The position numbers and the translations under genes were made by a program. A DNA stretch of 35,816 nt from a virus, in the IMG/VR virus record IMGVR_UViG_3300021335_000046, positions 1-35,816 of that record. The stretch is one strand, 5' to 3'. Each line of letters opens with the position of its first letter. The stretch's first letter is position 1. Under the pieces are notes generated by a model. It did not search any database, was not told the DNA's origin, and was given only the letters and a program-made list of their open reading frames with translations. Shown in pieces: positions 1 through 33,490 of this stretch.

Positions 1-39
1 TATAAAGATTTATATATTAATAAAATAAAATCTAATACA
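1..39 (+). other. AT-rich leader before first gene
   Basis: These 39 bases contain only five G or C residues and directly precede the first ATG. There is no Shine-Dalgarno-like purine run. The reading frame of the first gene stays open to the window edge, so an upstream start cannot be excluded. The composition looks like the A/T-only leaders seen before other genes here, and I read it as untranslated leader. No promoter is claimed. Confidence 0.35.
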
Positions 40-2037: not shown

Positions 2038-2249
2038 AAGAACAGACTTTAATTGAAATGAAAAATAAAATTCAATCACTAACAAATGTTGTACAACATT
2101 TATATACAGAGATAGAATATTTAAGAACAGTATCATTTGGTACGTTAGAAACAATGAAGCATATGTCTGACTATGACGATGCTTTAGGTAAAGTAAAAGA
2201 TAAAGTAAAAGAAACAAGCAATGGAGATAAGCAACAAGATACTAAGTGA
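2034..2249 (+). CDS. Small coiled-coil protein, unknown function
   Basis: A 71-aa acidic protein with a predicted helical/coiled-coil centre (heptad-like spacing of Ile, Leu, Val and Tyr between about residues 8 and 45) and a polar C-terminal tail ending DKQQDTK. It begins in an ATGA overlap with the SET gene and its 3' end overlaps the ribonucleotide reductase start by 29 nt, which suggests translational coupling. I do not recognise a family. Possible roles include a small partner of the adjacent reductase, but no sequence evidence supports this beyond position. Confidence 0.6.
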   Translation: MKEQTLIEMKNKIQSLTNVVQHLYTEIEYLRTVSFGTLETMKHMSDYDDALGKVKDKVKETSNGDKQQDTK

Positions 2250-4083
2250 TATAACTGTTTACATGAAGTATGCTAAGTACATACCTGAATTAAATAGAAG
2301 AGAAACTTGGGATGAGTTAGTTACTAGAAACAAGAACATGCATATTAAAAAATATCCTGATCTTGCCGACTCTATTGAAGAAGCTTATAAATTAGTATAT
2401 GAAAAGAAAGTTTTACCGTCTATGCGATCGCTACAGTTCGGAGGTAAACCGATTGAGATCTCGCCTAATCGAGTTTATAATTGTGCTTATCTACCTATTG
2501 ACAGCATTGAGTCTTTTAATGAAATAATGTTTTTATTATTAGGTGGTACTGGAGTAGGTTATTCTGTACAAAACCATCACGTTAATAAATTGCCAGCAGT
2601 TAATCAACCTTATAGTAAAAGAACTAGAAGACATTTAATCGGAGACAGTATTGAAGGCTGGGCTGACGCAGTTAAGGTTCTGATTAAGTCTTATATGGGT
2701 CCTAAGAGATCATCTAAGATAACATTTGATTATTCTGATATAAGACCAAAGGGAGCTCAATTAGTTACATCTGGAGGCAAAGCTCCAGGTCCACAGCCTT
2801 TAAAAGAGTGTCTAGTAAAAGTAGCAGGAATTTTAAATGATGTAGAAGACGGAGATAAATTAACTACATTACAAGCTCACGATATTGTTTGTCATATAGC
2901 TGATGCTGTATTAGCGGGTGGTATACGTAGAGCAGCTTTAATTAGTTTGTTTTCAGCAGATGATGAAGCAATGATAGGTTGTAAGTCTGGACACTGGTGG
3001 GAAGAAGCACCTCAACGAGGCCGAGCAAATAACTCAGCTGTACTTATGAGACATAAGATAAGTAAACAATTTTTTATGGATTTATGGAAGCGTGTTGAGC
3101 TATCAGGAGCAGGCGAACCAGGTATTTATTTTAATAATGATAAAGACTGGGGAACAAACCCATGTTGTGAAATAGCTTTACGACCATATCAGTTTTGTAA
3201 CTTATGTGAGGTAAATGCTAGTGATATAGTAGATCAAAATGATTTTAACAAAAGATGTCAAGTAGCTTCTTTTATAGGTACACTACAAGCAGGTTACACT
3301 GACTTTCATTATTTAAGAGACATATGGAAAGATACGACAGAGAAGGACGCCCTTATAGGTGTATCAATGACAGGAATAGGCTCTGCCGCTGTGCTGCAGT
3401 TGGATATGACGGACGCTGCAGATATAGTAGTAAAGCAAAACAGAAGACTAGCTAAGCTAATTGGTATTAAACCAGCTGCAAGATGTACAACTGTAAAGCC
3501 TGCTGGGACGACATCTCTGGCACTGGGAACTTCATCTGGTATTCATGCATGGCATAATGATTATTACGTCCGTAGAGTTAGAGTTGGTAAAAACGAAAGT
3601 ATGTATAAATACTTAATTGAAAACCATCCTGACTTAATTGAAGATGAATACTTTAGACCTCATGATACTGCTGTGATTAGTATACCACAGAAAGCTCCGG
3701 CTAATGCTATACTAAGAACTGAGTCACCATTTGATTTACTTGAACGTATAAAAAAAGTAGCAACTGAGTGGGTGAAACCAGGCCATAAACGTGGTAGTAA
3801 TACTCACAATGTTTCAGCTACTGTTAGTTTAAAAGCAGATGAGTGGGATAAGGCAGGTGATTGGATGTGGAAAAACAGAGATTATTATAATGGGCTATCT
3901 GTCCTACCGTATGACGGTGGTACATATACTCAAGCGCCATTTGAAGATATAAATAAATCTAAATATGAAACTATGATGAAGAGTTTAACTGATGTTAATC
4001 TTACTGATATAGTAGAAGTTGAAGATGAAACTGATCTAGCTGGTGAATTAGCTTGTGCAGGAGGCGCGTGTGAGATAGTATGA
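2221..4083 (+). CDS. nrdJ: Class II (B12-dependent) ribonucleoside-triphosphate reductase
   Basis: A 620-aa monomeric adenosylcobalamin-dependent reductase that converts NTPs to dNTPs. The active-site set is complete. C88 in NRVYNCAYLP is the first reducing cysteine. C315 and E317 in NPCCE are the thiyl-radical cysteine and catalytic glutamate. C326 in QFCNLCE is the partner cysteine. C612/C617 in CAGGACEIV form the C-terminal redox pair that is re-reduced by thioredoxin. The 11-residue spacing C315-C326 equals that in the Lactobacillus leichmannii enzyme (408-419). KPAGTTSLALGTSSG is the conserved phosphate-binding loop. At 620 residues it is shorter than the roughly 740-aa prototype, as is usual for phage copies. 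It needs cobalamin, so the host must make or import B12. It supplies dNTPs for phage replication and sits beside two dNTP pyrophosphohydrolases. Start at ATG 2221 overlaps the previous gene by 29 nt. Confidence 0.93.
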   Translation: MEISNKILSDITVYMKYAKYIPELNRRETWDELVTRNKNMHIKKYPDLADSIEEAYKLVYEKKVLPSMRSLQFGGKPIEISPNRVYNCAYLPIDSIESFNEIMFLLLGGTGVGYSVQNHHVNKLPAVNQPYSKRTRRHLIGDSIEGWADAVKVLIKSYMGPKRSSKITFDYSDIRPKGAQLVTSGGKAPGPQPLKECLVKVAGILNDVEDGDKLTTLQAHDIVCHIADAVLAGGIRRAALISLFSADDEAMIGCKSGHWWEEAPQRGRANNSAVLMRHKISKQFFMDLWKRVELSGAGEPGIYFNNDKDWGTNPCCEIALRPYQFCNLCEVNASDIVDQNDFNKRCQVASFIGTLQAGYTDFHYLRDIWKDTTEKDALIGVSMTGIGSAAVLQLDMTDAADIVVKQNRRLAKLIGIKPAARCTTVKPAGTTSLALGTSSGIHAWHNDYYVRRVRVGKNESMYKYLIENHPDLIEDEYFRPHDTAVISIPQKAPANAILRTESPFDLLERIKKVATEWVKPGHKRGSNTHNVSATVSLKADEWDKAGDWMWKNRDYYNGLSVLPYDGGTYTQAPFEDINKSKYETMMKSLTDVNLTDIVEVEDETDLAGELACAGGACEIV

Positions 4084-4287: not shown

Positions 4288-4361
4288 GGGGAATTAGCTC
4301 AGCTGGCTAGAGCGCCTGCCTTGCACGCAGGAGGTCATCAGTTCGACTCTGATATTCTCCA
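4288..4361 (+). tRNA. tRNA-Ala (anticodon TGC)
   Basis: A complete cloverleaf. Acceptor GGGGAAT pairs with ATTCTCC (one G-U). The D arm is GCTC/GAGC with an AGCTGGCTA loop. The anticodon stem CCTGC/GCAGG holds loop CTTGCAC with anticodon TGC, the variable loop is AGGTC, and the T arm ATCAG/CTGAT has loop TTCGACT. The discriminator base is A and the following bases are CA, so the full CCA end is not encoded and must be added by the host. It is the last gene of the + strand operon, 16 nt upstream of the terminator hairpin. A UGC anticodon reads GCA and, when modified, GCU, the Ala codons favoured in the AT-rich virion genes. Confidence 0.95.
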
Positions 4362-4377
4362 CATCTAAAAATAAAAA

Positions 4378-5170: not shown

Positions 5171-8100
5171 TTAGTTTCTTGTTCGTTTTCTTCTTGTTCT
5201 TGTACGTTTCTTTCTTGTTTTAACTTTAGGTTTATCAGCTTTATTTTTGCTACCTTCAAGTGTCCATTTAGGCCAACCACCAGCCATAGCTATTCTTTGC
5301 CACCAGTCATTTTCATCGTCTAACGCGCCTTCTAAATTTTCATATTTTAAAAGTACTCTATCTAAAGGTATGTTAGTTGTAGCAGACACTACTTTAGCAG
5401 CAGCTAAATAAGCTGGATTATCTAAAGCAAAACCTTTATCAAACATTTCTTGTCGTCTTTTCTTACTATCAAACTGCCAACCAGCTTGTCTTAATTTAGA
5501 TATTTTAGAACTAATTGGTGGAGCAAACTGTAATAACTTCCATACAGCATCTGTATATTCAGGTCTTGATCTACCTGATCTTTCGTATATGTCCATTAAA
5601 AAGTTTTTACCTACAGAAACTAAAGCACCTCCAATACCTAAACCTCTAAGTGTAGAATCTAACATACCATTTAAAGTGTTATAAACTTTATCATTGTCAT
5701 CATCTTCTTCACCAAAACCTAAAGCAAACATTGCCTGTTGTAGTGCATTGAATATTATATTTTGTACTACACCATAGTATATTATTTTACTAACATTAGC
5801 TTTACTACTGCCTCTACCAGCTGCTAAATCTTGAAAAGCTCTTTTTTGTAATCTAGCATATTGCATAGGTGTATTAGCAAACATAAGTATTAAACGACCA
5901 ATATCACTTGACTGTTGTTGAGATATTCTATCAGGTCTACTAGACTGTTGAGACTCTTCAGATATTTCTCTAAATTCTGTCATGGCTTTTGCTTTAGCCT
6001 CTGTCTCTGTCATGCCTTCATTCTCCATTAAATCTATTATTCTATTACGATAAAATGTAGCACCACCTAAAGCTATAGCAAAACTATCCGCGTATTGAGT
6101 TGGTAAATAACCTTTTTCCATTATGTAAGACAAAACAGCTTTAGCTTTATTTTTCGATGTTTTAGCTAAGTCAGCTATCTCAGACTCATTTATATTTATT
6201 CTAAGACCATCTCGTCTATCTCTTAAAAAATCAGAGTTCATCAACGTCATAAAGTCTTTCCAATATTGACCTTGATTAGCAAATGCTTTACCTGCTTTTA
6301 TAGGGTTATTAAAACCCCAATTTAAAAAGTTAACTGCAGATATTGTTTGAAGTATAGCTGATCTAGTATTAAAGAACATTATAGCAGCATTAGATCCGTT
6401 TATATAGTTAAGTATTCTATTGCTTAATCTATTGCCTGTGCTAGTTTTATTTCTACCACTCTTCATTCTTTGTAAAGAGTTTTCTAAAGCTTCTCTAAAC
6501 TTAGGTCCGTATATTGCTTCTATCTTGTTTAAATTTTCTTTACTAAATATAACATCTGCATTATCTTGCCACTCTTTTAATAAAGCAGAACGTTTAGTAG
6601 TGTTTAAACCATCTATTAAATCTGTAGTTATAGTTCCAGCTAACCACCCTTCTTGTGGCGCAGGGTATGGATCTTTATTTATCTGAGCTAATTGATCTGC
6701 AAATTGCTTTAATACAGGATCACTTTCAACTACATCAACTAATTCTTTAGTATCTGTTTTTGATAGTCCAGGTATAGTTACTCCTTGTTTATTCCACAAG
6801 TAAACTCTTACAGCTTGTTCATTAGTAAAGCCATCAACAGCGTCTTTAGCTAATGTTTTAGGAACATTTAAATCTTTCTTTAATTTTCTAAAGTCGTTCA
6901 TTAAATTAACTCTAGCTGTAGATAAATTTTCCATAGCTCTAGCAAAAGGATCAAATAAGTTTTCTTTATACCAAGCCATTTGTGCATCGCCTAGTTTTCC
7001 TTTACCTAAAGTTTTATATAATAAACCTGTAAAATCTTCAGCAGAAGGTGGTATCCAAAATTTAAATCTACCTTTGTTTGCACCTCTAACTTTTGCCTTA
7101 GCTTCTGAATATCTTTTTTCAGAAGCAATACCAGATTTTTGTTCTAGTATTTTATTAAAATCTCTATCTAAATCTTTAGCAGCTTTAATTTTAGCTTGCT
7201 GTACTTTAGACTTAACATCAATAACTTCTAGCGCGTCTCTAACAGCTTTAACATTTTGATAAGCGTCGTCAGCAAAATAAAAATCATTATATCCATCAGC
7301 TGCTTTATCTATTATCCAGTTAGCTTTTGCTTCACCTGTAGAGTTGCCTAGACCTGTTATATTTTCTATAGGTATATCAAGACCTTGACTATCTAAAAAT
7401 TCTTTAATAGCAGCTTGAGATTCAGGTGCTCTTGCCGTTAACACGAAAACGTCTTCTGTACCTCTAGCTTCTTGTATTTTTTTAGCTATATCTATTAGTG
7501 GACCAGGTTTACCTTTAGTTACTTTATTAAACTCAGAAAAGTCAAATACATAACCTTGCTCTAATAATGATTTACCTTGTGTTGCAAACTCTTCAGCATT
7601 TAATTTACCTTCAGTTCCATCAGGCGCAGTAAATAATACGTCGCTTTCTGTAGTAGCTAGAGTATCGTCAAAATCAAACACTCTGATTTTTTTAACAGGA
7701 GCATTAGGATCACGAGCTATTTTTAAAGCTTCATCAATTGTTTTAGCTTTACTAAGTACCTCAAACATACTCATGTCTTCTTCAAGATTTAGTACACCAG
7801 TTTCTTTTAACATTTCTTGATCAACTCTAGATGCTTCGTCTTTTGAAGCCATTAATCTTTTAGTGTTTAATTTCTCTTGTAGTTTACTTTTAGCAAACTC
7901 AGATTTATTTTGACCTGTTATTGGATTTTTAAAGTTATTTTCTAAATCGTTAATTACTTTACTTCTTAAAAAAGATAACTTACTAGTAGTACCAAAAGCT
8001 TTATCTTGCACGTCAAACAATACTTTAGGTCCTAGTTCTTGATCGTAGTCTACCATAAGCTCTAAAGCTTTTTCATTGAAAGCTTTTAATATAGATATAC

Positions 8101-11100
8101 GTTTGTAAGCTCTACCATTTTTAATTTGCTTAGCAAAATCTATCATAGCTTTAGTAACCTCGTAATTAACTAAAGCAGAAGCCTCCATATGTTCACCCTT
8201 AAATCTTAATACACTCATCAATACTTTAGGATCTAAATTACCATTAGTATATTCTACAGCTGCTTTATAGTCAGGGTGTTTTTTATTTATTTCTAATCTT
8301 GCTTTTACTTCAGGTTTTGCACCAGGTGGATTTAAACTCATATAATATTTACCCGTAACTGGATCAACAACAGGAGCTTGACTAACACCTTCAATTATTT
8401 GAACAGATGTTAATCTACTTAAACCTCTTGGCCCGTTTACGTTGTTAGTATTAGACTCATTTAATCTTAATATGCCAACTAAATTATCAGGATTATCAGC
8501 TATAACATCTAACATTCTAGTTTGTAAATAAGCTAAAGCTGGTACGTTGTTTGCATTGGCGGCTTCTATTCTACTACCAAATTTATCTTGTATCTCTTGT
8601 AACTTGTTACTAGAATCTGATATTAATATTTTTTGTATACCTAAAAATAAACCTTTGCCAGCATTTAATATTTCTATTTTCCTAGGATCAAATCCGTTTT
8701 TCTTTTTAAATGCTTCAACATCTGCTTCAGAAACTTTAGAAGTTATATTATTAAATTGTTTTTCTAAGTCTTCATATATTTTAATATCTTCTTCACTACC
8801 TTTTCTTAGATCTTTTAAAGCTCTATCAACCATACCAAACATAGACTTACCAAAATACTTAACAGCAACTGGATCTAGATTATTCATTAAAGCAGAAGAA
8901 GCTGTAGCCATTTGTTTTAGAGATCTTATATGAGTATCTTTATTTACTCTACTAAAATTATCGTCAGCATACTCTTGTCTTTGCTTAGCAAACTCTTCGC
9001 CAAATAGTTCTGCTTCATTTATTAAAGGTCTTCTAAATCCCATTATAGCTCTACTTAGCAAGTAAGATATTTGAGGATTTTCATCTATTGCCTTTATAAC
9101 AGCTGCAGGTAGCTTCATTTTTTCTAAATTAAATTTAGCTACTCTCCAACCTTTTCTAGCGCCATCATTCAAAAACTCTTCAATTCTATTGCCTACATCT
9201 TTTGAAAATTTAAAATCAACACCTCTGCCTACTTCACTAGCTATTTCTAACATCTCATCTGCTACTACATCGTCACCCATTAGCATATCTCTTTTCTCTC
9301 TTATATCTTCACTACGTAAAACTTCTTGTGCTGCGTCTAATCCTAGTTCTTCGCCTATTACTTCTGCTAATGCTGTTTGTTTTGAGGCAGGCCTACCAGT
9401 TGGCGGATCTAAATGATATTCAATAAAACGCTCTTGATTATAAGGAGCTTTTTCAAAAACTAAATTACCAGCTTTAGGATCTTTAACTCTTGTGCCAGCT
9501 TGTTGAGACTGATCTACAGTCATACGCTTTTGCTTGCCAGTTTCTTGATCTATAACAGGTTTTTTAAATGGCGCAAATCTTTTATTAAAAGTACGTTGTG
9601 GTACTTTATTATATATAGCTTCACCGTAAGTTTCTAAAAACTGTCTGTACTCAGGCGAGCTTGGCTTGCCCATAAGCTTTTTGACATCAGCCATTAAAAA
9701 TTTTCTAAACTGTTTTTCTAGCTCTGTAATAAACTTTCCTGACTCTACAGTTGGTAGCTTAGTTCCAAATGTCCTAGAAACAGTATTAACAACTTTCTCA
9801 AACAACGGATCTCCTTCTTTTATGTCTAATTGTTTACGTAAACTTTCAACTTCTTCTTCTAGTTTAGTATCTAGCGCTGTTTCTTCTTCTACAGCTATAT
9901 CAACTCTTTCAGAAATATCTTGAGTAAAGTCTGTGCCAAAATACTCATTAGCTATTTCAATAGCTCTTACTCTATAACCTGTTCTTTGATTATTAACAAA
10001 CTCACCAAGTGTTACATTTTCTTTGTACTCATCTGGCTTAGCATTATAAGCATCTATTAAATTAACAATACCTCTTGCACCAGTTAATATTTCATCAACT
10101 ACTATATCTTGATACAGATCAAAATCAGGTACATTACTATATTTGTTTCTTACATATCTTTCTACCTCTGGTCTAAACTCTTCTGCTATTTCAAAAGCAT
10201 CAGCACCTTCATCTTGTAGTTGACGTATCACAGTATCTTTAGCTCCTTTAATACCACGCTTTTCTCTAACAGCTTGACGTTTGCCTGCTAATTTTTCAGT
10301 GCTTTGTTTTCCTCTAGTTTTTAAATCTTCTGATATTTCTATACCTTCTTTCGCAGCACGTCTTATTGACTTGGTTAGTTTACCTTTTTTAAATGATCTA
10401 TTATAATCTCTTAAAAATCTAAATACATCTTCTTCAGTTTCAAACTTTAATTTACCAAATCTATCAGGCATTACTGTTGCTGCTAATCTTTGTACAAAGT
10501 CTTTTATTTGTTCTGTAAAAGTTCTATCAAACTTAATCTCGCCATACTCCATAGCTTCACTCATAAGTGTCATAGCTTCTTCAGCAGCTTCTGCGTCTTT
10601 AACTTCTGGATCTTTTAAATAGGCGTTTAATCTTTTATAAAATGTAGCAAGCTCAGCTCTTTTACCAGGATTACTAGTATCTATTGTTTTAAGTTTGTCT
10701 TTAATAGCTCGAGCCATACCTAAAGCATTTTCATCACCTTTAGCTATTGTAGCATCTAATACAGCGTGTAATACTTCATGTGCGCCTGTAAAATAACCCT
10801 TACTATCTTTAACTCTCTTTTTATTTATTAATACAAATTTTTCATTAGTACTAGGATCTACAAAGAAATTACCTCTATTACCTGCAGCTTGCTTACCGCC
10901 TGATAAACCTCTTTCATTTATAAAAGACTCAACAGCTGCATCGTCTTCTAGCTCAACAAACTTTGTGTTTAATCCTTCAGATATTCTAGCACCTTTTTTA
11001 TTTATATCCCCTGCTTTTACAAACTCAGTTTCTACAAAATTTATTTTTTTAAGCTTAGCTTTTTCTGCTTTTATTCTTTCGTCAATGTCTCCTTGAAACT

Positions 11101-13714
11101 CAGGCTCTAATCTTTGCTTTTGTCTTTCTAAAGATTTAATTTTAACCATAGATTCTATAGCTTCCTTCTTACCTTCTTGACTGAATTTTTTAGGCACTTT
11201 ACTACCAGAGTTTCTAGTATCAGCTATAGCATCCATCTCATCTTGATACTCTTGTTCTGTAAATGTTTTTTGAGTAACAGGATTCATTTTAAAAGTACCA
11301 TCTTTATTTTTGTACTTTTCATCTACGCCTTTTATTATTTTTTCAAATACTTTATTTTGCTGTACTAAATTGCTACCATCCCAGTTCCACTTGGTCATTA
11401 GATCTGTGGCAGCTGCTCTAGCTTCTACACCTAGTTGAGTTGTAGTTCTACCAGCAAAAGGTAATACAGCACCTATAATACCTCCAGCTTTAGCTGATTG
11501 TAATATAACATTAGGATCAACAGCTCCACGAGCTGCACCTAAACCTTTTGAAGATATACTACTACCAACAGCATTTAAAGTTTCTTGACCTGCTTCTGTA
11601 AACGCCTCTATCAAACCTGCCTTACCACTTGTCTTCATTAAATCTAAAGCTCTAGGTAAAACTTTATCAAACTCTCTTCTATATATAGAACCTAGAGCAC
11701 TTTTAACACCGTTTTTACTCACGTTTTTACCTAAGCCGCTTAACATCCCTTTGAATATTCTAGTTTGACCTAACTGTTCTAAACTAGCTTGAGCAATAGC
11801 TGATCCAGCTAACACCGCAGTGTCAGTGTATTTACCATTTAACACAGCATCAATATACTGTTCATTTGTAGGGTTTTTAACACCTAAATCTGCTTTTATA
11901 CCTTTTTCTATAGCATCTGAAAAACCATCACCAAAAAATGTAGTAGCATTTGCAAGAACTCCAGCAGTTGTTATTCCGGTAACTATCCAAGCAGGAGCAC
12001 CTACTGTACTAGCTACAGCAGCAGCAGCGCCACCTACCATATAAGGTAATGATTCACCAGTACCTAAAATAATATCATCAATACTAGGTATACCTTCCCA
12101 ATCAGCTTTTTTAGCTAAGTTTTTCCAAGCTTCTGATTCGTATTTTTTTAGTAAGTTTTCTTTAACATCTGATTCTAGTTCTGCTACTTTTTTATTTTGA
12201 GCATCTAGCATTTCCTTTAACTTAGAACCATATTGAGATCTATCGCCATACTTGTCGTAGAGTCTTTGCATCCTGTCTCTTTCTGCTACAACTCCTTTAC
12301 CTGCAAACGTATCTATATACCAGTTATCTAAGTTTTGTTTAGTTCTTACTCCAATATCTACTGCTGAAGATATAGCAGACTCACCTAATAAAGCTGTAGC
12401 TTGTGTAAGATCTGCAGCACCTGGAACGTAAGGTATATCAAATTTAGAAGCAAAATCATAAACAGCATCTGTAGTGCTATATAAATCACTAGTAGCTCTT
12501 CCTAATTCTCTAGCTTTACTTGTATATACGCCTCCTACAGCTTCACCTATAGCATCTACTCTTTTACTAAGTAAAGTATCGTCTTTTAATTTACCAGCTA
12601 ATAATGATTCTCTGTACTTGTAGAAGTCTTCGTTAGCTGCGTTTACACTAGCTTCAGTATCTAATTTGTATTTTTTTAATATAACATTTTTCTTATACTC
12701 TTCTAACTGAGGTTCTATAGCTTTAGCATAGCCTTTTATTTTAGCTTGTACTAATGGATCTGTATTAACCGCATCTGACTGAGCTGTTTTAAAATCTAAA
12801 TCTAAATCTTTTAATGTAGTAATATATTGATCTTCAGCATCAAGAGCTTCTAGTTCTTCTTCAGTATAGTCTTTAAAAAAACCACCAGATAAATCTTCAG
12901 GATTTATATCTCTAAATTTTGATTCGGCTCTTTCTTTAGTTTTGTTCTCTACACCTTCTCTATATTTAGCAGAAAGTTTAGGCTCACCACCACCTTCTTT
13001 TAATACATCACCTCGCCTCATAGCTTCTTCGTCCATAGCAGCCCACTCAGGTTCATACTCATATTCTACTTGTATATCACCACCAACTATAGAAGGCATG
13101 TTTTTAACATACTCTGTCTTTTGATCTTCACTTAAATTATCATTATCAAATATTTGTGTTATTTGATTTTCATAAACCTTAGTTGCATCTTCTCTATCAA
13201 ACTCTACTTCTTCGCTATTAACTTCAGATTCATACTTATATATCTCAGGGTATTGTGCTTTTCTAATATCAGCTATTGCTTTAGTAGCATCTGCTATAGC
13301 TTTGTTATCTTCTAACGAAGCTAATTGCATTTCAAAGTTTTGGCCTGGCAAGTTTAAACCTGTTTGATCAGATTTTAATTCCATACCACCTGTAAATATT
13401 TTATTATCACCTACAGTAGTATAGTTATCGTCTTCAAACTGTTGTTGCTTTTCTTCTTTTCTTTTATTATATTCCTTTTCTTGATCTGCTAAATTATCAA
13501 ACTCTTTTTGAACGTCTTCAGTACTGCCCATTTGAGTAGTAACACCACCACCAAACACAGCACTTTTCCACGTATCATAATCGTCATCGACGCCTAAGTG
13601 CCCATGTAGCCCTTGTAAATATTCACCGTTATCTTTTACAGCGTTTACCCAAGTGTCGTAATCATCATCAACATCTAGGTGACCGTGTAAACCTCTTAAA
13701 TATTCTTCATTCAT
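5171..13714 (-). CDS. Giant multidomain internal-virion / polyvalent-type protein (2847 aa)
   Basis: One uninterrupted 2847-aa frame, a quarter of the window. Order: two 27-residue YLxGLHGHL-VDDDYDTW repeats (4-53); charged helical region; Gly/Ala-rich hydrophobic segments near 556-595 and 735-757; a zinc-metallopeptidase motif HEVLH (H979-H983) with a possible third ligand at E1045/E1046; a helical region near 1190-1250; long coiled-coil stretches; a HAD-phosphatase domain about 2010-2180 (D2014-F-D2016-D-T2018, LTAR, then FADD with D2149/D2150); and a C-terminal region with FFNTRSAILQTISA near 2447-2460 resembling large polyvalent-protein domains. Hydrophobic helices lie near 2640-2675, and the tail is Arg/Lys-rich. 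No RNA-polymerase DxDxD loop is seen. Probably packaged and ejected with DNA, forming a conduit and carrying enzymes; inference from size, position after tail genes, and architecture. It follows two smaller internal-virion candidates. Confidence 0.8.
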   Translation of the reverse strand: MNEEYLRGLHGHLDVDDDYDTWVNAVKDNGEYLQGLHGHLGVDDDYDTWKSAVFGGGVTTQMGSTEDVQKEFDNLADQEKEYNKRKEEKQQQFEDDNYTTVGDNKIFTGGMELKSDQTGLNLPGQNFEMQLASLEDNKAIADATKAIADIRKAQYPEIYKYESEVNSEEVEFDREDATKVYENQITQIFDNDNLSEDQKTEYVKNMPSIVGGDIQVEYEYEPEWAAMDEEAMRRGDVLKEGGGEPKLSAKYREGVENKTKERAESKFRDINPEDLSGGFFKDYTEEELEALDAEDQYITTLKDLDLDFKTAQSDAVNTDPLVQAKIKGYAKAIEPQLEEYKKNVILKKYKLDTEASVNAANEDFYKYRESLLAGKLKDDTLLSKRVDAIGEAVGGVYTSKARELGRATSDLYSTTDAVYDFASKFDIPYVPGAADLTQATALLGESAISSAVDIGVRTKQNLDNWYIDTFAGKGVVAERDRMQRLYDKYGDRSQYGSKLKEMLDAQNKKVAELESDVKENLLKKYESEAWKNLAKKADWEGIPSIDDIILGTGESLPYMVGGAAAAVASTVGAPAWIVTGITTAGVLANATTFFGDGFSDAIEKGIKADLGVKNPTNEQYIDAVLNGKYTDTAVLAGSAIAQASLEQLGQTRIFKGMLSGLGKNVSKNGVKSALGSIYRREFDKVLPRALDLMKTSGKAGLIEAFTEAGQETLNAVGSSISSKGLGAARGAVDPNVILQSAKAGGIIGAVLPFAGRTTTQLGVEARAAATDLMTKWNWDGSNLVQQNKVFEKIIKGVDEKYKNKDGTFKMNPVTQKTFTEQEYQDEMDAIADTRNSGSKVPKKFSQEGKKEAIESMVKIKSLERQKQRLEPEFQGDIDERIKAEKAKLKKINFVETEFVKAGDINKKGARISEGLNTKFVELEDDAAVESFINERGLSGGKQAAGNRGNFFVDPSTNEKFVLINKKRVKDSKGYFTGAHEVLHAVLDATIAKGDENALGMARAIKDKLKTIDTSNPGKRAELATFYKRLNAYLKDPEVKDAEAAEEAMTLMSEAMEYGEIKFDRTFTEQIKDFVQRLAATVMPDRFGKLKFETEEDVFRFLRDYNRSFKKGKLTKSIRRAAKEGIEISEDLKTRGKQSTEKLAGKRQAVREKRGIKGAKDTVIRQLQDEGADAFEIAEEFRPEVERYVRNKYSNVPDFDLYQDIVVDEILTGARGIVNLIDAYNAKPDEYKENVTLGEFVNNQRTGYRVRAIEIANEYFGTDFTQDISERVDIAVEEETALDTKLEEEVESLRKQLDIKEGDPLFEKVVNTVSRTFGTKLPTVESGKFITELEKQFRKFLMADVKKLMGKPSSPEYRQFLETYGEAIYNKVPQRTFNKRFAPFKKPVIDQETGKQKRMTVDQSQQAGTRVKDPKAGNLVFEKAPYNQERFIEYHLDPPTGRPASKQTALAEVIGEELGLDAAQEVLRSEDIREKRDMLMGDDVVADEMLEIASEVGRGVDFKFSKDVGNRIEEFLNDGARKGWRVAKFNLEKMKLPAAVIKAIDENPQISYLLSRAIMGFRRPLINEAELFGEEFAKQRQEYADDNFSRVNKDTHIRSLKQMATASSALMNNLDPVAVKYFGKSMFGMVDRALKDLRKGSEEDIKIYEDLEKQFNNITSKVSEADVEAFKKKNGFDPRKIEILNAGKGLFLGIQKILISDSSNKLQEIQDKFGSRIEAANANNVPALAYLQTRMLDVIADNPDNLVGILRLNESNTNNVNGPRGLSRLTSVQIIEGVSQAPVVDPVTGKYYMSLNPPGAKPEVKARLEINKKHPDYKAAVEYTNGNLDPKVLMSVLRFKGEHMEASALVNYEVTKAMIDFAKQIKNGRAYKRISILKAFNEKALELMVDYDQELGPKVLFDVQDKAFGTTSKLSFLRSKVINDLENNFKNPITGQNKSEFAKSKLQEKLNTKRLMASKDEASRVDQEMLKETGVLNLEEDMSMFEVLSKAKTIDEALKIARDPNAPVKKIRVFDFDDTLATTESDVLFTAPDGTEGKLNAEEFATQGKSLLEQGYVFDFSEFNKVTKGKPGPLIDIAKKIQEARGTEDVFVLTARAPESQAAIKEFLDSQGLDIPIENITGLGNSTGEAKANWIIDKAADGYNDFYFADDAYQNVKAVRDALEVIDVKSKVQQAKIKAAKDLDRDFNKILEQKSGIASEKRYSEAKAKVRGANKGRFKFWIPPSAEDFTGLLYKTLGKGKLGDAQMAWYKENLFDPFARAMENLSTARVNLMNDFRKLKKDLNVPKTLAKDAVDGFTNEQAVRVYLWNKQGVTIPGLSKTDTKELVDVVESDPVLKQFADQLAQINKDPYPAPQEGWLAGTITTDLIDGLNTTKRSALLKEWQDNADVIFSKENLNKIEAIYGPKFREALENSLQRMKSGRNKTSTGNRLSNRILNYINGSNAAIMFFNTRSAILQTISAVNFLNWGFNNPIKAGKAFANQGQYWKDFMTLMNSDFLRDRRDGLRININESEIADLAKTSKNKAKAVLSYIMEKGYLPTQYADSFAIALGGATFYRNRIIDLMENEGMTETEAKAKAMTEFREISEESQQSSRPDRISQQQSSDIGRLILMFANTPMQYARLQKRAFQDLAAGRGSSKANVSKIIYYGVVQNIIFNALQQAMFALGFGEEDDDNDKVYNTLNGMLDSTLRGLGIGGALVSVGKNFLMDIYERSGRSRPEYTDAVWKLLQFAPPISSKISKLRQAGWQFDSKKRRQEMFDKGFALDNPAYLAAAKVVSATTNIPLDRVLLKYENLEGALDDENDWWQRIAMAGGWPKWTLEGSKNKADKPKVKTRKKRTRTRRKRTRN
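13556..13705 (-). repeat. Tandem 27-residue coding repeat in giant protein N-terminus
   Basis: Two copies, residues 4-26 and 31-53, share EYL-x-GLHGHL-x-VDDDYDTW followed by a small AV-containing spacer, with an exact 81-nt period. Protein identity is very high but many synonymous third positions differ (for example the DDDYDTW codons), so the duplication is old and held by selection on the protein, not a recent slippage event. The acidic, aromatic motif at the extreme N-terminus would suit a docking or packaging tag. Confidence 0.85.
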
Positions 13715-15381: not shown

Positions 15382-16086
15382 TTATGAAAATGCTCCTCCT
15401 GCTGCAGCAGTTGCAATACTACCTGCTGAACTTGCTACTGACTGTCCTATTCCAGATATAGCAGCTGTTCTAGCAGCTCTAGCATCTGCTGCGTTTTGCA
15501 TAGCGTTATCCATTAAACCTGCAGCTCTATCCATTTGTTTTTCTTTAAATGCAATAGCATCTTCTTGAACTGTTATATCTGCTTGACCCATTAATTGTTG
15601 TAAATTAGCGGCGCCTTGTGCTTTTGCTTTTTCAACACTAGCTTGGCCTTCAGCTCTCATTTTATTGTTTTGTGTTTCTTGAGCGTTTATACTAGCTGCA
15701 ATACCACGTTTACTTTGTAAAGCAGCTTGTGCTAAAGCAGTTGCACCACCTGCAGCTTGACCAGTTTCCATCATAACATCTAAACTGTTAGCAAGAGCTT
15801 GATCAGCTTGTTCTGCTTGCATTTTAAAAGCTTCAGTAGCAACAGTTAAATTAGCATAAGGATTACTTAAATCTTCAAACTGATTCTGCATGTTCTCATA
15901 CGGGTTTTTCATTACTGGTCTTTCAGCTTCTAAAGCTGTTAAAGCATCTTGTTGAGTCTGAGCTTGAGCATCTTGCCTTTGACCTTCTTTTTTAGCTTTA
16001 TTGGCTGCTATAGCACCACTGGTTATACCAGCGGCTGCTGATACTCCAGCTCCAATAAGTATTGCTGTTCCTGTTAATACTGCCAT
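15382..16086 (-). CDS. Ala/Gln-rich internal-virion (ejection) protein candidate
   Basis: A 234-aa protein opening with a hydrophobic glycine-rich segment (residues 4-27, LTGTAILIGAGVSAAAGITSG) followed by a long Ala/Gln/Lys/Glu helix, and closing with a second small-residue hydrophobic stretch (SSAGSIATAAAGGAFS). This layout, a membrane-inserting head plus an Ala/Gln-rich coiled coil, is typical of small podovirus ejection proteins that help form the trans-envelope channel, similar in style to T7 gp14 or P22 gp7. It is located directly between a GNAT-like gene and two larger internal-virion candidates. Sequence similarity to a named family is not claimed. Confidence 0.6.
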   Translation of the reverse strand: MAVLTGTAILIGAGVSAAAGITSGAIAANKAKKEGQRQDAQAQTQQDALTALEAERPVMKNPYENMQNQFEDLSNPYANLTVATEAFKMQAEQADQALANSLDVMMETGQAAGGATALAQAALQSKRGIAASINAQETQNNKMRAEGQASVEKAKAQGAANLQQLMGQADITVQEDAIAFKEKQMDRAAGLMDNAMQNAADARAARTAAISGIGQSVASSAGSIATAAAGGAFS

Positions 16087-26183: not shown

Positions 26184-27662
26184 TTAAGCTCCTTTGAATA
26201 ACACGAAGTTATTAGCAGCTTGTGTAATTAAACATCTTTCAGATAAGAAATTAACTCTTAGCGTATCTAAATCAGTAGTGTAAGCACCACCTACTGAACC
26301 AGTGATCCAAGCTTTGAATCGTCTGTCTTCAGTCTCAGAAGCTCTAAATCTTACGTGTAAGAAAGGTCTTCTAATATTAGATCCTAACATTTGGTCATAT
26401 ACTGTAGATGTACCAGCTGGTATCATAACACCATCAATAGCGCTAGATAAACCTCTTGTAGTAGCATCGTTTAAGTATTTCCAGTCAGTTTTATAGAAGT
26501 CATAAGAACCTCTTCTGAAACCAGAGAAACCAAAGTTAAGTGCCATTTCAGCTTCGTTATCAAATAAACCGTAAGAAGCAGCTTGAGTTGAAGCAAAACC
26601 ACCATTAGTAGCAGCTAACATATCATCAAAATCTAGAGCAGTAGCTCTTGATAAGAATAACATGTTTTCTTCAATAGCACCTTGCTTGTCTAATTGCTTT
26701 AATATCTCATCGAAATCAGCTAAAGCACCTGAACCAGGAGCAGCAGCACCAGCAAAACCAGAGTATACATTACCTCTTGCTTCGATAGCAGCAAATAAAC
26801 CTTCAGTACCTTTGATGTTTTGAGCAGCACCACCTGGTCCAAAGTTACCACCAAAAGCAACAGTGTTAGCTTGAAGTTCACCTTCAACCATTGCCATTTC
26901 TAAATAATCTTCAAATCTTAGTCTAGTTTCAGACTCAGCTTTTAGATACCATAAGTATCCAGAAGTTCCGTCTTCAGTAGCAACCTCGATCCAACCAATT
27001 TGCGCAGCATCAGAACCACTTAACTCATAGTTATCTTTCAAGATAATTGGTGAGTTAACAAAAGTTGTAACACCTGGCTCGATAGCTCCAGCCATACCAT
27101 TACTTCCTTTTGGAAATTCAGATCCATAAACAAATAAGCTACAAGCACCACCTGTTATAGCAGCTGGTAAAGCAGCAGAAGTTGTTTCATATAATATACA
27201 GTCAACAGTATAACCGTTAGTAGTTACACCAGAAGTTCTATCAGTTACTAATGCTTTAGCAGATACAAGACCTGTAGCGTTATCAGTAATTAAGATAGTG
27301 TTACCATCTCTGATAGCAGAAGTAGCTGGGTTACCAGCACCTGGCGTAATAGTAACTGTAATACTAGATCCAGCGTTAGCTGCAACAGCACAGTTATCAT
27401 ATGCAATGTGTAATCTATTTTGTTCAGACCAAACAACTTGATCTGATGTCATCGGCATCTCTGCACCGACCATTCTTAGGAAACCAGATAATGTTCTGTT
27501 TCCATATCTTTCTACCTCTTGCTCATAAAGCTCTGGTAGATATTGTTGCGCCCACTGATTAAATGCACCGTCGTTAAAATCAATATAGTTATCCTGTACG
27601 GTAACCTGATTTGGCATCGGCTTAATTGAAGCAGGGAACGATCCTCCATTTACAAAACTCAT
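26184..27662 (-). CDS. Major capsid protein
   Basis: A 492-aa protein, placed after portal and scaffold-like genes. The N-terminal helix FNQWAQQYLPELYEQEVERYG followed by RTLSGFLRMVGAEMPMTSDQVVWSEQNRLH is typical of HK97-fold major capsid proteins in crAss-like and related marine podoviruses, as I recall. A long insertion of Gly/Thr-rich strands follows (about 80-170), then the axial-type helices FAAIEARGNVYSG and FDEILKQLDKQGAIEENMLF, and the C-terminal strands. No pro-region cleavage site is evident. Codons end in C and G more often than in most neighbours, typical for the most abundant phage protein. The 117-aa gene follows closely on the same transcript. Confidence 0.85.
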   Translation of the reverse strand: MSFVNGGSFPASIKPMPNQVTVQDNYIDFNDGAFNQWAQQYLPELYEQEVERYGNRTLSGFLRMVGAEMPMTSDQVVWSEQNRLHIAYDNCAVAANAGSSITVTITPGAGNPATSAIRDGNTILITDNATGLVSAKALVTDRTSGVTTNGYTVDCILYETTSAALPAAITGGACSLFVYGSEFPKGSNGMAGAIEPGVTTFVNSPIILKDNYELSGSDAAQIGWIEVATEDGTSGYLWYLKAESETRLRFEDYLEMAMVEGELQANTVAFGGNFGPGGAAQNIKGTEGLFAAIEARGNVYSGFAGAAAPGSGALADFDEILKQLDKQGAIEENMLFLSRATALDFDDMLAATNGGFASTQAASYGLFDNEAEMALNFGFSGFRRGSYDFYKTDWKYLNDATTRGLSSAIDGVMIPAGTSTVYDQMLGSNIRRPFLHVRFRASETEDRRFKAWITGSVGGAYTTDLDTLRVNFLSERCLITQAANNFVLFKGA

Positions 27663-28879: not shown

Positions 28880-31264
28880 TTAAATTTCTAAACCACCTTC
28901 ATTTTGGTTTTCAAAATCTATTGGTAATAAATCATTTTTCTTTTGATCTATCATTGCACTCTGTTGAGAGCCTACTATTCTAGCTCTTTTATCTTTTCTT
29001 TCTTCTATATCAGCTTCTCGCTGCGCTTCTTTTATAACTTTTTGTTCGCCTAATTGCATATTGTAATTAAACTCTAATTCCATTAATTCACGTTTAATCT
29101 GTGACTCAACTCTCAGACGTTCTATTTCAAAGCCAGACTTACCTTTTTCAAATTTAAGTTTAGTATCTAATATAGCTTGTTGTTTTTGAACTTCTGACAT
29201 TGCTGCAGCTTCACTCGCTTGTGCATTAGCTTGTGCTTGTGCTTGTATATTTGCTTGTTGAGCTGCTTGTGCTGCTTCAGCAGCTTTTTTACGTTTTAGC
29301 TTAATCATTTGATTAGCTAGTTTAAGATTATTTATTTGTCTAATATCTATAGCGTCTTCTAAATTTATACTACCACTAGATAATGCAGCTTGTATATTAG
29401 CTTCTAGTTGTTCTTTTTCTCTTTCATCTGGTATTAAATCAAAGTATATACCAAAATCAGCCATGTGTATTTGAGACGTATCTGTTAGTTGACCTACGCT
29501 CCAAGTTGATATACTGTTTTTTAAAGCTTCTTCAGTTAATTCAAACTCAATACTATCAGAAGTTCTTAGTACAATATTTTCACAAGTTCTAACTGTTAAG
29601 TATAAATAAGAATTTAATATATGTTTAGTAGCTGTATTAGAATTAGCAGCAGCTAGCTTCTGTAAACCTACTAATGAATCAGAATTAGGTACACTACCAT
29701 CTCTAGCTTCATTAAGTCCCGTTACATCTCTTATCATTTGTAAATAATATTGATAAGTATTTATAAGTGAAGCTACTTTATTACCGCCGTCACTTTTAAC
29801 TAGCTCTTGTATTGGTATTCTACCTGGATTAGGATCACCTTCAGTTGTCATTGATCTACCTAATATACTACCAGTTTGAAAATACATATTTAAAGCTTCT
29901 TTAGCGTTATAGCTAGTTCCATTACCTAAATCTACTTCTGCTAAACCATCTACGTCTAAATAAACACCATCTGGTATTACTTTAGATATTACTTGTTGTA
30001 TTTTTAAATGTGTTAATTGTATCATGTCAGCAAAGCCCATCATACGACCTACTAAACTTTCAACTCTACCTTGATATAATTTAGGTGCACATATGTTATA
30101 ATTCATATTAACCTTAACTAAATTAGACTTTGGCCTTGTCATATTTTCTGCAAGCTTCCACTCTAACATCATATCGTATCCTAGTACTTTAGCACCGCTA
30201 TATAAAGTTTCTATAGATCTACTAACTTTATCAAAGTTTTCATTAGACTCAGGATTAAAAGTATCTGGTTTTTCTAATGACTTTTCTAAACCTGTTGCAG
30301 TCTTTTTAATTTTAAATACTTGTTCGCTATAAGTTTTATATTCAAAAAACAAAATATAAATAGCATTACCATCTCTCCTACCGTTCCAATTATATAAAAA
30401 GCTACTATTACCTTGGTATTGCTCTAGTTTTTCTAGTTCTGAATCTGTTAAGTCAGGAAATTGTTTTTTACACTCAGCTAGAGATAATGGCTTAACTTCG
30501 CCTACATACCATAAATCTTCAAAATTAGGATCTTCACTATATGAATGTACCATACGAGCTGGATCAACATACTCAACTGTAACACCTTCAGATTTATTCC
30601 AGTTTGTTTTAACAGCTCCAATACCTAATACTACTAAGTCTTCAATAATTCTTTTCTTTGTTAAGTCATATTTATTATAAGCTAAGGTATTATTAATAGC
30701 TTCTTCAGCAGCTATTTCAGTAGCCTGCTTGTAACTTAACTGCATATGCAAATCTAATTCATCTTTGTTTTCAGGTAACTCCTCTGGATTATCTGAATTA
30801 AATAAATTTAAATTTAACTCTGACTGTAAAGAAGTTAGAAACTGTTTTGCTTGCATATCTCTTAATATGTCTTGTGCATATTTAGATCTTACTCTTCTTG
30901 ACTCTGGATCTTGAGCAAAAGCTTTTACATCATATAGCTTGTCATCCATACCATTAACTACAATATCTACAAATTTAGGTATTATAGGAACTGGTTTCCA
31001 GTCTAGGTTTAAATAGCTTAAATCGCCATTTATAGCTAATTCATCTTTGTATTTTTGCACAGGTTGTTCTGCTCTAGCATATAACCTACGCATTCTAAAA
31101 TTATTGTAATTAGTATTAAATCTGTTTTCAACTCCAGATCTAGTCCCACTAAACCAATCGCCTTCTATAGCTTGAGCAACTTGCTTGCCATAGTCTATGC
31201 TTGATTTAACCTCATCAGGTACTACCTGATCTGGGAAAGAGCTATAAGTGTTCGTTATCTTCAT
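28880..31264 (-). CDS. Portal protein
   Basis: A 794-aa protein, directly after the large terminase gene. The N-terminal region with NNFRMRRLYARAEQPVQKY and WKPVPIIPKFVDIVVNGMDDKLYDV resembles the opening helices and wing of portal proteins of crAss-like and related podoviruses. The central part (GRMMGFADMIQLTHLKIQQVIS and GLNEARDGSVPNSDSLVG) fits the stem/clip region. Residues about 655-775 form a long Ala/Gln/Lys/Glu coiled coil, the expected C-terminal barrel helix. It forms the twelve-subunit DNA channel at one capsid vertex and binds the terminase. It is separated from terminase by 3 nt and is encoded on the same strand. The call rests on order and family style. Confidence 0.82.
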   Translation of the reverse strand: MKITNTYSSFPDQVVPDEVKSSIDYGKQVAQAIEGDWFSGTRSGVENRFNTNYNNFRMRRLYARAEQPVQKYKDELAINGDLSYLNLDWKPVPIIPKFVDIVVNGMDDKLYDVKAFAQDPESRRVRSKYAQDILRDMQAKQFLTSLQSELNLNLFNSDNPEELPENKDELDLHMQLSYKQATEIAAEEAINNTLAYNKYDLTKKRIIEDLVVLGIGAVKTNWNKSEGVTVEYVDPARMVHSYSEDPNFEDLWYVGEVKPLSLAECKKQFPDLTDSELEKLEQYQGNSSFLYNWNGRRDGNAIYILFFEYKTYSEQVFKIKKTATGLEKSLEKPDTFNPESNENFDKVSRSIETLYSGAKVLGYDMMLEWKLAENMTRPKSNLVKVNMNYNICAPKLYQGRVESLVGRMMGFADMIQLTHLKIQQVISKVIPDGVYLDVDGLAEVDLGNGTSYNAKEALNMYFQTGSILGRSMTTEGDPNPGRIPIQELVKSDGGNKVASLINTYQYYLQMIRDVTGLNEARDGSVPNSDSLVGLQKLAAANSNTATKHILNSYLYLTVRTCENIVLRTSDSIEFELTEEALKNSISTWSVGQLTDTSQIHMADFGIYFDLIPDEREKEQLEANIQAALSSGSINLEDAIDIRQINNLKLANQMIKLKRKKAAEAAQAAQQANIQAQAQANAQASEAAAMSEVQKQQAILDTKLKFEKGKSGFEIERLRVESQIKRELMELEFNYNMQLGEQKVIKEAQREADIEERKDKRARIVGSQQSAMIDQKKNDLLPIDFENQNEGGLEI

Positions 31265-31267
31265 GCA

Positions 31268-33490
31268 TTATATTATTTGTGACATAGATCCGTCATTGTT
31301 GTATTTTCTTATTCCTAAGTTAATTTCTTTTCTAGTTCTTAATGGTATAGGTCTATATTTATTTTTATTACAAGCCATAATAGCTAAACCAGAACTAATA
31401 GATGCATCATATTTTGTTCTAGCATTTATGTTAAATCTAGACCAATCATCTAATGTTCTTTGAAAATACATATTTCCATAACCATTTTCAAGTGCACCTA
31501 CGTGGTTTTCTATATAAAATTCTATAGCAGCCGCGTGTGCTTGTTTAATATCTTCACTAGAGTTAGGTATTCCACCTATTTCTCTTTCAGCTGGTGATAG
31601 TTTATTGTACAGCTTGTCAGGTCTGTTAATACTAAAACCTCTATAACCTCTACGCTTTAAATAATACAACAATCTTGGTTTGTTATTTTCAGCAAGTAAT
31701 GGCATACCATAAAAAACTAAAGCCATTAAAACATCTTCAAAGAATACTTCTGCAGTATCAGGTCTTGCTATGTATTCTAAAAAAAATTGATTTGGTGGTG
31801 CATCTTCCATGCTAAACTTAGTTAGTCCATGTAATGCTCCTTTAGAACCTTTACCATCCACAGTACCGCTAATGTCGTAACTGTCACAGCCAAAAGCTCC
31901 AATGTGTTCGTTACCAGGATATTTTGTTCCATTTTTTAATAATACTTTATTTTGTAATTCAACTGGTGGTACCCATGATACTTTAAATCTACCATTTTTG
32001 TTAGGGTAAAATGTTACTTGCGTATCTTTAATACCGTTAAGCCATTGAAAGCTTCCTTGGGTAACAGATACAAAATGATTAGCCTCTTCGTTATAATCTA
32101 TTTGTTGATATATTTTAGTTAAATTAAATAAGCTATCTTTTGTTTCATCTCTAAAAGCATGCTTTTCAGTTCTTGGAAACTGTCTATAGTATTCATTTAA
32201 CGCGTCTTGATCGTGTTTTAATCCTTCAACTTCGTTTTCCCAGTGTTTGATAACCCCTGTCGTAATAGTTGAACCATCAATTGTTTTGATTGGATTTTTT
32301 GGAGATGTGAAGACAGGTAATCCATGAGTATCCATGAATCCTTCGTAGTTCCACTCCATAGGTATGAACAAGCTATAGAGTCCAGAAGTAGTTTGTCCGT
32401 TTTTATTTCTTTTAGTAACGTCTGAATTGTTGTATAGTTTTTTGAAGTTGTCTCCACCTTTGTCTAAAGCATTTGAAGTTGAGCCCATCATACACTTACC
32501 TACAACTCTTGATCCTAGACGCAATGTAGTTTTTGTAACTCTCCAGTTATTTAATATATTATCAGGTCTTTCCCATTTACCACTTTCATCATGAGCTAAT
32601 ATTTTTAGCTTTTCACCATCATAAGAGTTATCACCTGTATTTTTCCAGTCAATAGTTGTATCAAGTCCTTCTAGTTCTGCAAGTTGTTCATTCGTTTCCA
32701 GCTTTCTTCTAGTAAGTTTGGATGCCGGAACCCTATATGCCAACTCAGTCTTTGGCCTATCCATACCGTCTTGAATTGGTTTGAAGAAAAACGGATAATT
32801 AACGGATATTGGGACAACTTTATCTGTAAACATTTTTTTGGCATCGGCACCAGACTTGGAAAGTATACCGAATCTAGCATCGGAAGATATTGTAGCTTGG
32901 TTGACAAGTTCTGCGCTTGCCATAAAAGAGAATCCAGATCGTCTGTTTTTGAGGTAACACATACCGTAACATCTTTTGTCTGCTTTGCAAGCTTCCCAGA
33001 ATATAAAGAAGAGTCTGTTTGACTCTCTATATTCAGGTGCTCCAATGTCGATTTTTGACCATTGCAAGTACATGTAATGAGTGCCAGTAATGTAAGTAGT
33101 AACACCATTGTTATAAAAGTAAAATCCTTGCTCTCGTCTAGTAAATTCATCATCTATATAATCGTACCATTTTTCTTTAAAATCTAATGGGTATTCTTCC
33201 CAATCAAATCTACTTTTTATTCTTTGTAGTTCTTTTGGATATTCAAATCTTTCCCAGTGTTGTTCCTCTTGTTTTTTGCTTCGTTTATACGGTTCATCTG
33301 CTGTTGGTAAAGCAATGCGGAGACCTTGTATTTCAATAACTGATCCAATTTTACCTGTTTTACTTATTACTACAAAATCATACTCCACATTATAACCATA
33401 CTCCCACTTTTTATATCTGTTGTTTTTAGCTAATATCTTAGGATTAACAACGTCCTTAACCTCTTTCCAAAGCGTTTGCTCGTAACTCAT
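31268..33490 (-). CDS. terL: Terminase large subunit
   Basis: A 740-aa DNA-packaging motor. Visible ATPase elements are an atypical Walker A, KNRRSGFS (181-188), Walker B LKILAHDE with D301 and E302, and a coupling motif KCMMGSTSN (332-340). The C-terminal RNase H-fold nuclease contains GAFGCDSYD (D536), EVFFEDVL (E585/D586 region) and acidic residues near DDWSRFN. It cuts concatemers and pumps DNA through the portal. The start overlaps the small terminase gene by ATGA. Codons between about 32220 and 33070 (residues about 140-423) favour CTT/CTC, TCC, TTC, GTC and GGA instead of the TTA, TCT, TTT, GTT, GGT bias on both sides, and long alternative frames are open only there, suggesting a mosaic gene. 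Confidence 0.9.
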   Translation of the reverse strand: MSYEQTLWKEVKDVVNPKILAKNNRYKKWEYGYNVEYDFVVISKTGKIGSVIEIQGLRIALPTADEPYKRSKKQEEQHWERFEYPKELQRIKSRFDWEEYPLDFKEKWYDYIDDEFTRREQGFYFYNNGVTTYITGTHYMYLQWSKIDIGAPEYRESNRLFFIFWEACKADKRCYGMCYLKNRRSGFSFMASAELVNQATISSDARFGILSKSGADAKKMFTDKVVPISVNYPFFFKPIQDGMDRPKTELAYRVPASKLTRRKLETNEQLAELEGLDTTIDWKNTGDNSYDGEKLKILAHDESGKWERPDNILNNWRVTKTTLRLGSRVVGKCMMGSTSNALDKGGDNFKKLYNNSDVTKRNKNGQTTSGLYSLFIPMEWNYEGFMDTHGLPVFTSPKNPIKTIDGSTITTGVIKHWENEVEGLKHDQDALNEYYRQFPRTEKHAFRDETKDSLFNLTKIYQQIDYNEEANHFVSVTQGSFQWLNGIKDTQVTFYPNKNGRFKVSWVPPVELQNKVLLKNGTKYPGNEHIGAFGCDSYDISGTVDGKGSKGALHGLTKFSMEDAPPNQFFLEYIARPDTAEVFFEDVLMALVFYGMPLLAENNKPRLLYYLKRRGYRGFSINRPDKLYNKLSPAEREIGGIPNSSEDIKQAHAAAIEFYIENHVGALENGYGNMYFQRTLDDWSRFNINARTKYDASISSGLAIMACNKNKYRPIPLRTRKEINLGIRKYNNDGSMSQII

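Follow-up and report, generated by a model that had tools for sequence, protein, structure and literature searches.

The window analysed here, a 35,816-base stretch of DNA from a marine phage (positions 1-35,816 of IMG/VR record IMGVR_UViG_3300021335_000046), encodes a giant protein of 2847 amino acids and of the polyvalent-protein type (5171..13714, minus strand, as are all features below unless marked otherwise), and within this protein lies a domain (residues 2008-2175; 7190..7693) that is, with high confidence, an active HAD phosphatase. For the combined reading, in which this competent phosphatase is an effector module of a polyvalent protein, is probably delivered with the genome and acts likeliest on nucleic-acid ends, we see an even balance of probability. 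Polyvalent proteins are regarded as carriers of the earliest enzymes that a phage brings into its host, and only part of their cargo has been catalogued. With a conserved phosphatase in a swappable slot, sometimes fused to a Pnk-like kinase, the cargo would come to include end-healing or nucleotide clean-up, and an early, pre-transcription counter-defence would become directly testable; phages with such a giant may deliver an end-repair enzyme at infection.

Catalytic motifs and their conservation

The domain carries four HAD motifs: motif I, DFDDT (residues 2014-2018; 7661..7675), in which we take D2014 to be the nucleophile and D2016 the acid/base, as is usual for the HAD family; motif II, LTAR (residues 2092-2095; 7430..7441), with T2093 and R2095; motif III, K2130 (7325..7327); and motif IV, D2149-D2150 (7265..7270), within FADDAYQN (residues 2147-2154; 7253-7276). 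A small cap lies between motifs I and II (approximately residues 2026-2063; 7526..7639), as judged from the secondary structure of the AlphaFold2 (AF2) model. An earlier note on this DNA, made from the letters alone, had placed motifs I, II and IV at these positions and missed motif III; its call of a HAD phosphatase-type module is borne out by the four motifs, the predicted HAD core and the conservation of the catalytic residues described below.

When searched on its own, a 221-amino-acid segment containing the domain matches phrog_415 ('polynucleotide kinase') with an E value of 3.4e-8, Pfam DUF2608 at 2.5e-4 (under the family's cut-off) and, weakly, the DNA 3'-phosphatase family TIGR01664 (0.0097, far under the cut-off). 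The whole 2847-residue protein gave no HAD match in Pfam or NCBIfam, PF08282 was not found in the window record, and tblastn of the full protein against 50,697 phage records returned no match at 1e-5; at the sensitivity used, no giant with a HAD was found in this phage set.

Relatives were collected in two scans. The first, over viral contigs, kept 80 of 261 loci encoding a relative, and in all 80 the domain lies within an open frame of 1891-3597 amino acids (8 of these frames run off the 3' end of the locus). D2014, D2016, T2018, T2093, R2095, K2130, D2149 and D2150 are identical in all 81 aligned domains (the window and the 80 loci). The second scan avoided selection for the HAD by using C-terminal residues 2331-2800 as the query, and kept 80 of 97 loci. 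Seventy of these encode a HAD domain in the same frame; in seven (L118, L124, L138, L147, L148, L160 and L161) the HAD is absent and the HAD profile matches only a downstream stretch; one locus is cut by the contig end (L157) and another inside the HAD (L117). In the remaining locus (L141) the giant breaks just after the HAD into two open frames (2326 and 676 amino acids), with the HAD in the adjacent frame, which is either a real split or a sequencing error. No second HAD copy was found by profile in the seven HAD-less records (28.7-67.7 kb, possibly incomplete). Because these seven relatives lack the HAD, we regard it as an accessory part of the giant.

Pooled, with no reduction beyond the removal of exact duplicates, the sets amount to 142 unique proteins, which are therefore not independent; nine loci from metagenome-assembled genomes (MAGs) and one stand-alone HAD (L174) are among them. 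The HAD profile matches 140 of the 142, and 132 cover the catalytic columns. D2014, D2016, T2093, R2095, D2149 and D2150 are kept in 132/132 of these domain-bearing proteins, T2018 in 131/132 (one has Cys) and K2130 at all 131 aligned letters; the catalytic positions are intact even in relatives that are at most 48% identical to the window domain. Loss of D2014, to which the earlier note had drawn attention as the change to look for in relatives, occurs in none of those that keep the domain. The nine loci from bacterial and archaeal genomes are read as phage contigs within MAGs because eight lie in open frames of 1178-3024 amino acids and the contig stops short in the other. Diverged members of the giant family occur on two Woesearchaeota MAG contigs (L169, L170), where binning contamination is the probable explanation.

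Fold, slot and candidate substrates

AF2 applied to 51 aligned domains gave a model with a mean pLDDT of 81 and a pTM of 0.70, in which an alpha/beta HAD core is predicted at a pLDDT near or above 90 across most of residues 2008-2165, followed by a low-confidence tail from segment residue 184; the structure prediction that the earlier note had proposed thus returned a Rossmann-like HAD core. Sequence searches of the PDB were uninformative (E values of 0.3 and worse for the single domain, and only unrelated rows for the 51-row profile), so a comparison of folds was needed. In Foldseek's own ranking, which held no row at E <= 0.001, class B and C acid phosphatases come first (E 6e-3 and worse), several of them solved with nucleotides or nucleosides. 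VIA-align 2, run over Foldseek's best 1000 chains, placed the T4 Pnkp 3'-phosphatase first (5uj0; Z 10.3, rmsd 2.6, 120 aligned residues, 16% identity), ahead of bacterial Pnkp1 (4xru; Z 10.0), T4 Pnkp (2ia5; Z 9.0) and other HAD-fold proteins (Z 8.7 and lower), so that in these model comparisons the lead of Pnkp over general HAD folds is modest.

Profile comparisons point in the same direction. T4 PseT scores 420 bits against phrog_505, and its residues 154-298 match phrog_415, the family matched by the window segment, at 3e-24. A nine-row set of the window family (including two stand-alone HADs) aligned by hhalign to nine T4-type phosphatases at 93% (E 2.8e-7), and the 51-row profile did so at 90% (1.6e-6); against T4 alone the value was 37%, covering motif I only. 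The motif II arginine is common to both sides (TAR in 9/9 window-family rows, SGR in 9/9 T4-type rows). At the places of the RxPYD and DDR arginines, which are invariant in the nine T4-type phosphatases, the window family has no Arg, and the window protein contains no P-loop of the form GxxGxGK[ST] and no fused N-terminal kinase. Membership in the T4-type Pnkp family was rejected because the two arginines are missing, and for the same reason we call the domain Pnkp-like. The comparison with polynucleotide 3'-phosphatases suggested by the earlier note therefore yields T4 Pnkp as the closest solved fold and phrog_415 as a family common to both, and by sequence profile and predicted model the domain appears to be distantly related to the T4 RNA/DNA-end-healing phosphatase.

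A second enzyme was found inside this domain in some relatives. Pfam AAA_33 (PF13671) matched one of 23 records, within the giant open reading frame of genome G020 (L114), and this match led us to a P-loop kinase of about 200 residues, which inspection of L106, L114, L171 and L172 places after HAD motif I and ahead of the cap. The nested kinase matches AAA_33 at 1.1e-13, Zeta_toxin at 1.8e-13 and phrog_505, the family of T4 PseT itself, at 1.3e-9; in the PDB its best sequence match is a zeta toxin (0.0059), and T4 Pnk chains are matched as well. On these similarities the kinase would be classed as Pnk/zeta-like, equally close to Zeta_toxin and to Pnk. A kinase-aimed scan yielded 11 loci, with the nested form on seven contigs (two being those of L114 and L106; in L180 it is cut before motif II), a kinase directly before the conserved C-terminal module and without a HAD in L185 and L186, and a kinase in other contexts in L187 and L188. 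GGPG[SA]GK and NQD are present in 11/11 aligned kinases.

The slot may thus hold a HAD, a HAD with nested kinase (nine proteins), a kinase alone (two) or neither (seven); because nested kinases were found by motif and by a kinase-aimed scan, their frequency is biased. A FastTree phylogeny of 141 C-terminal modules gives at least three changes for the HAD state and at least seven for the kinase state, counts that are rough (a FastTree tree only, with long branches flagged and L185 left out) and that fit repeated module exchange at the slot. Other inserts of about 45 residues occur in or near the HAD cap (L128, L129, L135 and L155; also L091, L096, L113 and L153), and the cap looks like an insertion hot spot. 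The 'minor head protein' of Cyanophage PSS2 (GQ334450.1 18959-19324, H50) also holds a relative of the nested kinase, which is another virion-linked copy.

Because the fold is closest to T4 Pnkp and relatives combine it with a Pnk-like kinase, we favour nucleic-acid ends as the main substrate, tentatively and at slightly under an even chance; small nucleotides or sugars stay in consideration because of the zeta resemblance, the missing arginines and the lack of a detected ligase. The RNA ligase family PF09414 was found in 0/23 records (the control was positive in 6/14 genomes); PF09511 was likewise found in 0/23, but its control matched nowhere, so that this result is uninformative. A stand-alone HAD of Ruegeria phage RpAliso (L193), found by its similarity to T4 Pnkp, lies five genes from an RNA ligase.

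Two other substrates bear on the same evidence. A nucleotidase or signal-nucleotide phosphatase, destroying defence-made nucleotide messengers or small phosphates at infection, would agree with the acid phosphatases at the head of the Foldseek ranking, with the polyvalent-protein survey PMC5512222, which proposes that 2H and InPase domains have counter-nucleotide roles, and with the MazG, a nucleotide pyrophosphohydrolase type, that the window also encodes; we nevertheless judge it unlikely, if worth keeping in view, since the finer aligner puts Pnkp phosphatases first, phrog_415 also spans the phosphatase half of T4 PseT, and relatives carry a Pnk-like kinase within the same module. Less credit goes to action on sugar phosphates or proteins, that is, on cell-wall precursors together with a zeta-type kinase, or in dephosphorylation of virion or host proteins at entry. 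The zeta toxin matches of the nested kinase would suit it, as would the name UDP-N-acetylglucosamine kinase carried by one UniProt relative of the C-terminal module and the presence of a Legionella effector HAD, among others, in the lower-Z VIA-align rows, but the kinase also matches phrog_505 and T4 Pnk chains and Pnkp ranks first for the HAD fold, which makes this reading improbable.

The giant protein and its virion cluster

The giant gene stands at the end of a cluster that includes the terminase large subunit (31268..33490; phrog_6681, E 2.5e-164), the portal protein (28880..31264; phrog_6547, E 1.3e-131), a 492-residue virion structural protein that is probably the major capsid protein (26184..27662; phrog_13704, E 7.6e-90) and a 234-residue neighbour of the giant (15382..16086). 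Homologues of this neighbour occur in 144/159 relative loci, and in 144 of the 147 loci with enough DNA they lie upstream of the giant on the same strand (loci on the same contig being counted apart). Besides the terminase and portal genes, seven or eight more structural genes have counterparts in MW202828, elemoF, Panino and phi18:3, all in matching order, and the giant is the last gene of the cluster in the window and in all four reference genomes. In the giant's gene position, Cellulophaga phage phi18:3 encodes gp123, noted as detected by MS/MS, which has no detectable sequence similarity to the window giant. The giants in this position (elemoF gp18, those of MW202828 and Panino, and phi18:3 gp123) contain no HAD that we could find (HMM E values of 0.034 and worse, no motif I), and their C-termini gave no significant match to the window-family profile; elemoF gp18 has a 137-residue match in the zincin region (E 3e-4 in a six-sequence database).

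Several other features of the window were recorded. The proteins of 16506-18440 and 18470-22921 match different parts of the 1474-position structural family phrog_14478, and both match one long open reading frame in the reference phages; the pair is a split or duplicated virion gene. A GroES-like co-chaperonin (33707-34300) lies close to the terminase, and in flavophages one is likewise annotated beside the terminase. On the opposite strand are a MazG-like pyrophosphatase (1-657, plus strand), a Holliday junction resolvase (930-1409, plus) and a ribonucleotide reductase (2221-4083, plus), and a tRNA-Ala (TGC) gene (4288-4362, plus) lies near the 3' end of the giant gene; in Maribacter phage Panino a large tRNA array is found next to the giant.

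Within the giant, conservation is strongly uneven: mean blastp coverage by 80 relatives is 0.89-1.00 for residues 2001-2800, as against 0.01-0.52 per 50-residue block for residues 1-1950, a hypervariable N-terminal cargo region (7865..13714). This region contains a zincin-like metallopeptidase motif, HEVLH (residues 979-983; 10766..10780), and HExxH is present in 129 of 139 proteins longer than 1800 amino acids. In 22 aligned N-termini the motif is largely invariant, with no exception at its Glu, its second His and a further Glu that follows 50 residues later; such a combination of HExxH and a later Glu is described for polyvalent zincins in the main text of PMC5512222. The zincin-like region itself has no Pfam match; among the 22 N-termini Pfam detected P-loop kinases in three, its remaining matches being single and scattered. 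An EHxxPA motif (E1295-H1296 of L160), between the zincin and the HAD slot, is nearly invariant in the same 22 sequences.

The conserved C-terminal module (residues 2186-2847; 5174..7159), delimited by the conservation profile, is predicted by AF2 to be all helical (residues 2201-2847, pLDDT 80). Searching BFVD with this model gave close relatives in the top four rows (41-47% identity), and, in later rows at E values between roughly 2e-5 and 5e-4, several proteins named PolyVal ADP-ribosyltransferase, ART-PolyVal-like and Large polyvalent protein associated domain; row 50, a weak match (E 4.5e-3), is a structural protein from the Flavobacterium phage elemoC. The same model retrieved nothing convincing from the PDB, and no Pfam LPD domain was found in the giant. 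The family as a whole combines several unrelated enzymatic domains, namely the HAD and zincin-like motif of the window giant and the kinase of its relatives.

The claim of the earlier note that the HAD sits in a virion protein accordingly holds up as very probable virion association, on the analogy of the last cluster position, the polyvalent-type fold and the position of phi18:3 gp123, and we consider it highly likely that the giant is both polyvalent and virion-associated. The giant would instead be a late cytoplasmic or assembly protein, neither packaged nor ejected, only in a quite improbable case, to which the missing sequence link with the MS/MS-detected gp123 lends some weight but against which stand the conserved last place in the virion cluster, the C-terminal polyvalent fold and the weak match to the elemo phage 'Structural protein'. 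That the HAD is a non-catalytic structural or regulatory remnant in a virion protein is scarcely credible: seven relatives do without it and the flanking module is all helical, like structural proteins, but the retention of the catalytic positions in 132/132 proteins, including rows at most 48% identical to the window domain, is not expected of a dead domain.

Proposed role and comparison with known systems

Under the virion-associated, catalytically active reading, the giant is produced alongside the structural proteins of the virion, probably enters the particle and would probably reach the host with the genome. Its zincin-like metallopeptidase motif may free individual modules, as in the published polyvalent-protein model, and by the chemistry of the HAD family phosphate would be removed through a phospho-aspartate intermediate at D2014. 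The likeliest substrate would be a phosphorylated nucleic-acid end, as in T4 Pnkp; tRNA or DNA could in this way be mended where a host defence has cut it, ahead of phage gene expression. A host ligase could act together with a phosphatase brought in by the virion, and in some relatives the remaining half of end-healing would come from the Pnk-like kinase in the cap. The fullest version of this proposal, in which marine phages package an end-healing enzyme with its phosphatase half in a dedicated swappable slot, in some lineages a kinase-in-HAD Pnkp of new topology with the kinase inserted as the cap, and eject it to heal tRNA or DNA ends before expression, is speculative and in our estimate doubtful.

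The literature drawn on comprised parts of PMC5512222, PMC7824862 and PMC9503650. The giant resembles the polyvalent proteins of Iyer et al. 2017 (PMC5512222, as described in its main text) in being a giant multidomain protein with variable enzymatic cargo, an HExxH...E motif and a virion-cluster context, and its C-terminal fold is common to proteins annotated PolyVal ART or Large polyvalent protein associated domain. It differs from that catalogue in its HAD phosphatase: no such domain was found in the main text, where 'phosphatase' and 'haloacid' occur 0 times and 'had' three times, as a verb where discernible. A literature search, with most subscription papers outside its scope, brought up no paper recognised as describing a HAD phosphatase, either in a virion protein or in a polyvalent one. 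We regard the HAD as an effector, or cargo, variant that is new within the known polyvalent class; the nesting of a kinase in the HAD of relatives was unexpected.

Among phage HADs, the stand-alone proteins L174 (LR756500.1) and L176 (IMG/VR) match phrog_415, as the window domain does, and have in common with the window family the cap signature LTxxEF...DxxxF; unlike the virion-cluster fusion of the window they are separate genes of about 180-210 amino acids, and L174 shares only about 26% identity with the window domain. The PKN-HAD and 'Swiss-army-knife' HAD families, jumbo-phage HAD phosphatases assigned to RNA-end processing in the part of PMC7824862 drawn on here, are described there as kinase-fused or stand-alone and without a polyvalent link, and are set apart from the window domain by this description only. 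With T4 Pnkp, the window domain has in common phrog_415 and the motif order D-x-D, [ST]-x-R, K, DD, and some of its relatives add a kinase partner; it departs from T4 Pnkp in its extra small cap and in being embedded in a giant protein. Whereas the kinase of T4 Pnkp is N-terminal, that of the relatives, when present, is nested inside the HAD, which would be a new build for a bifunctional kinase/phosphatase.
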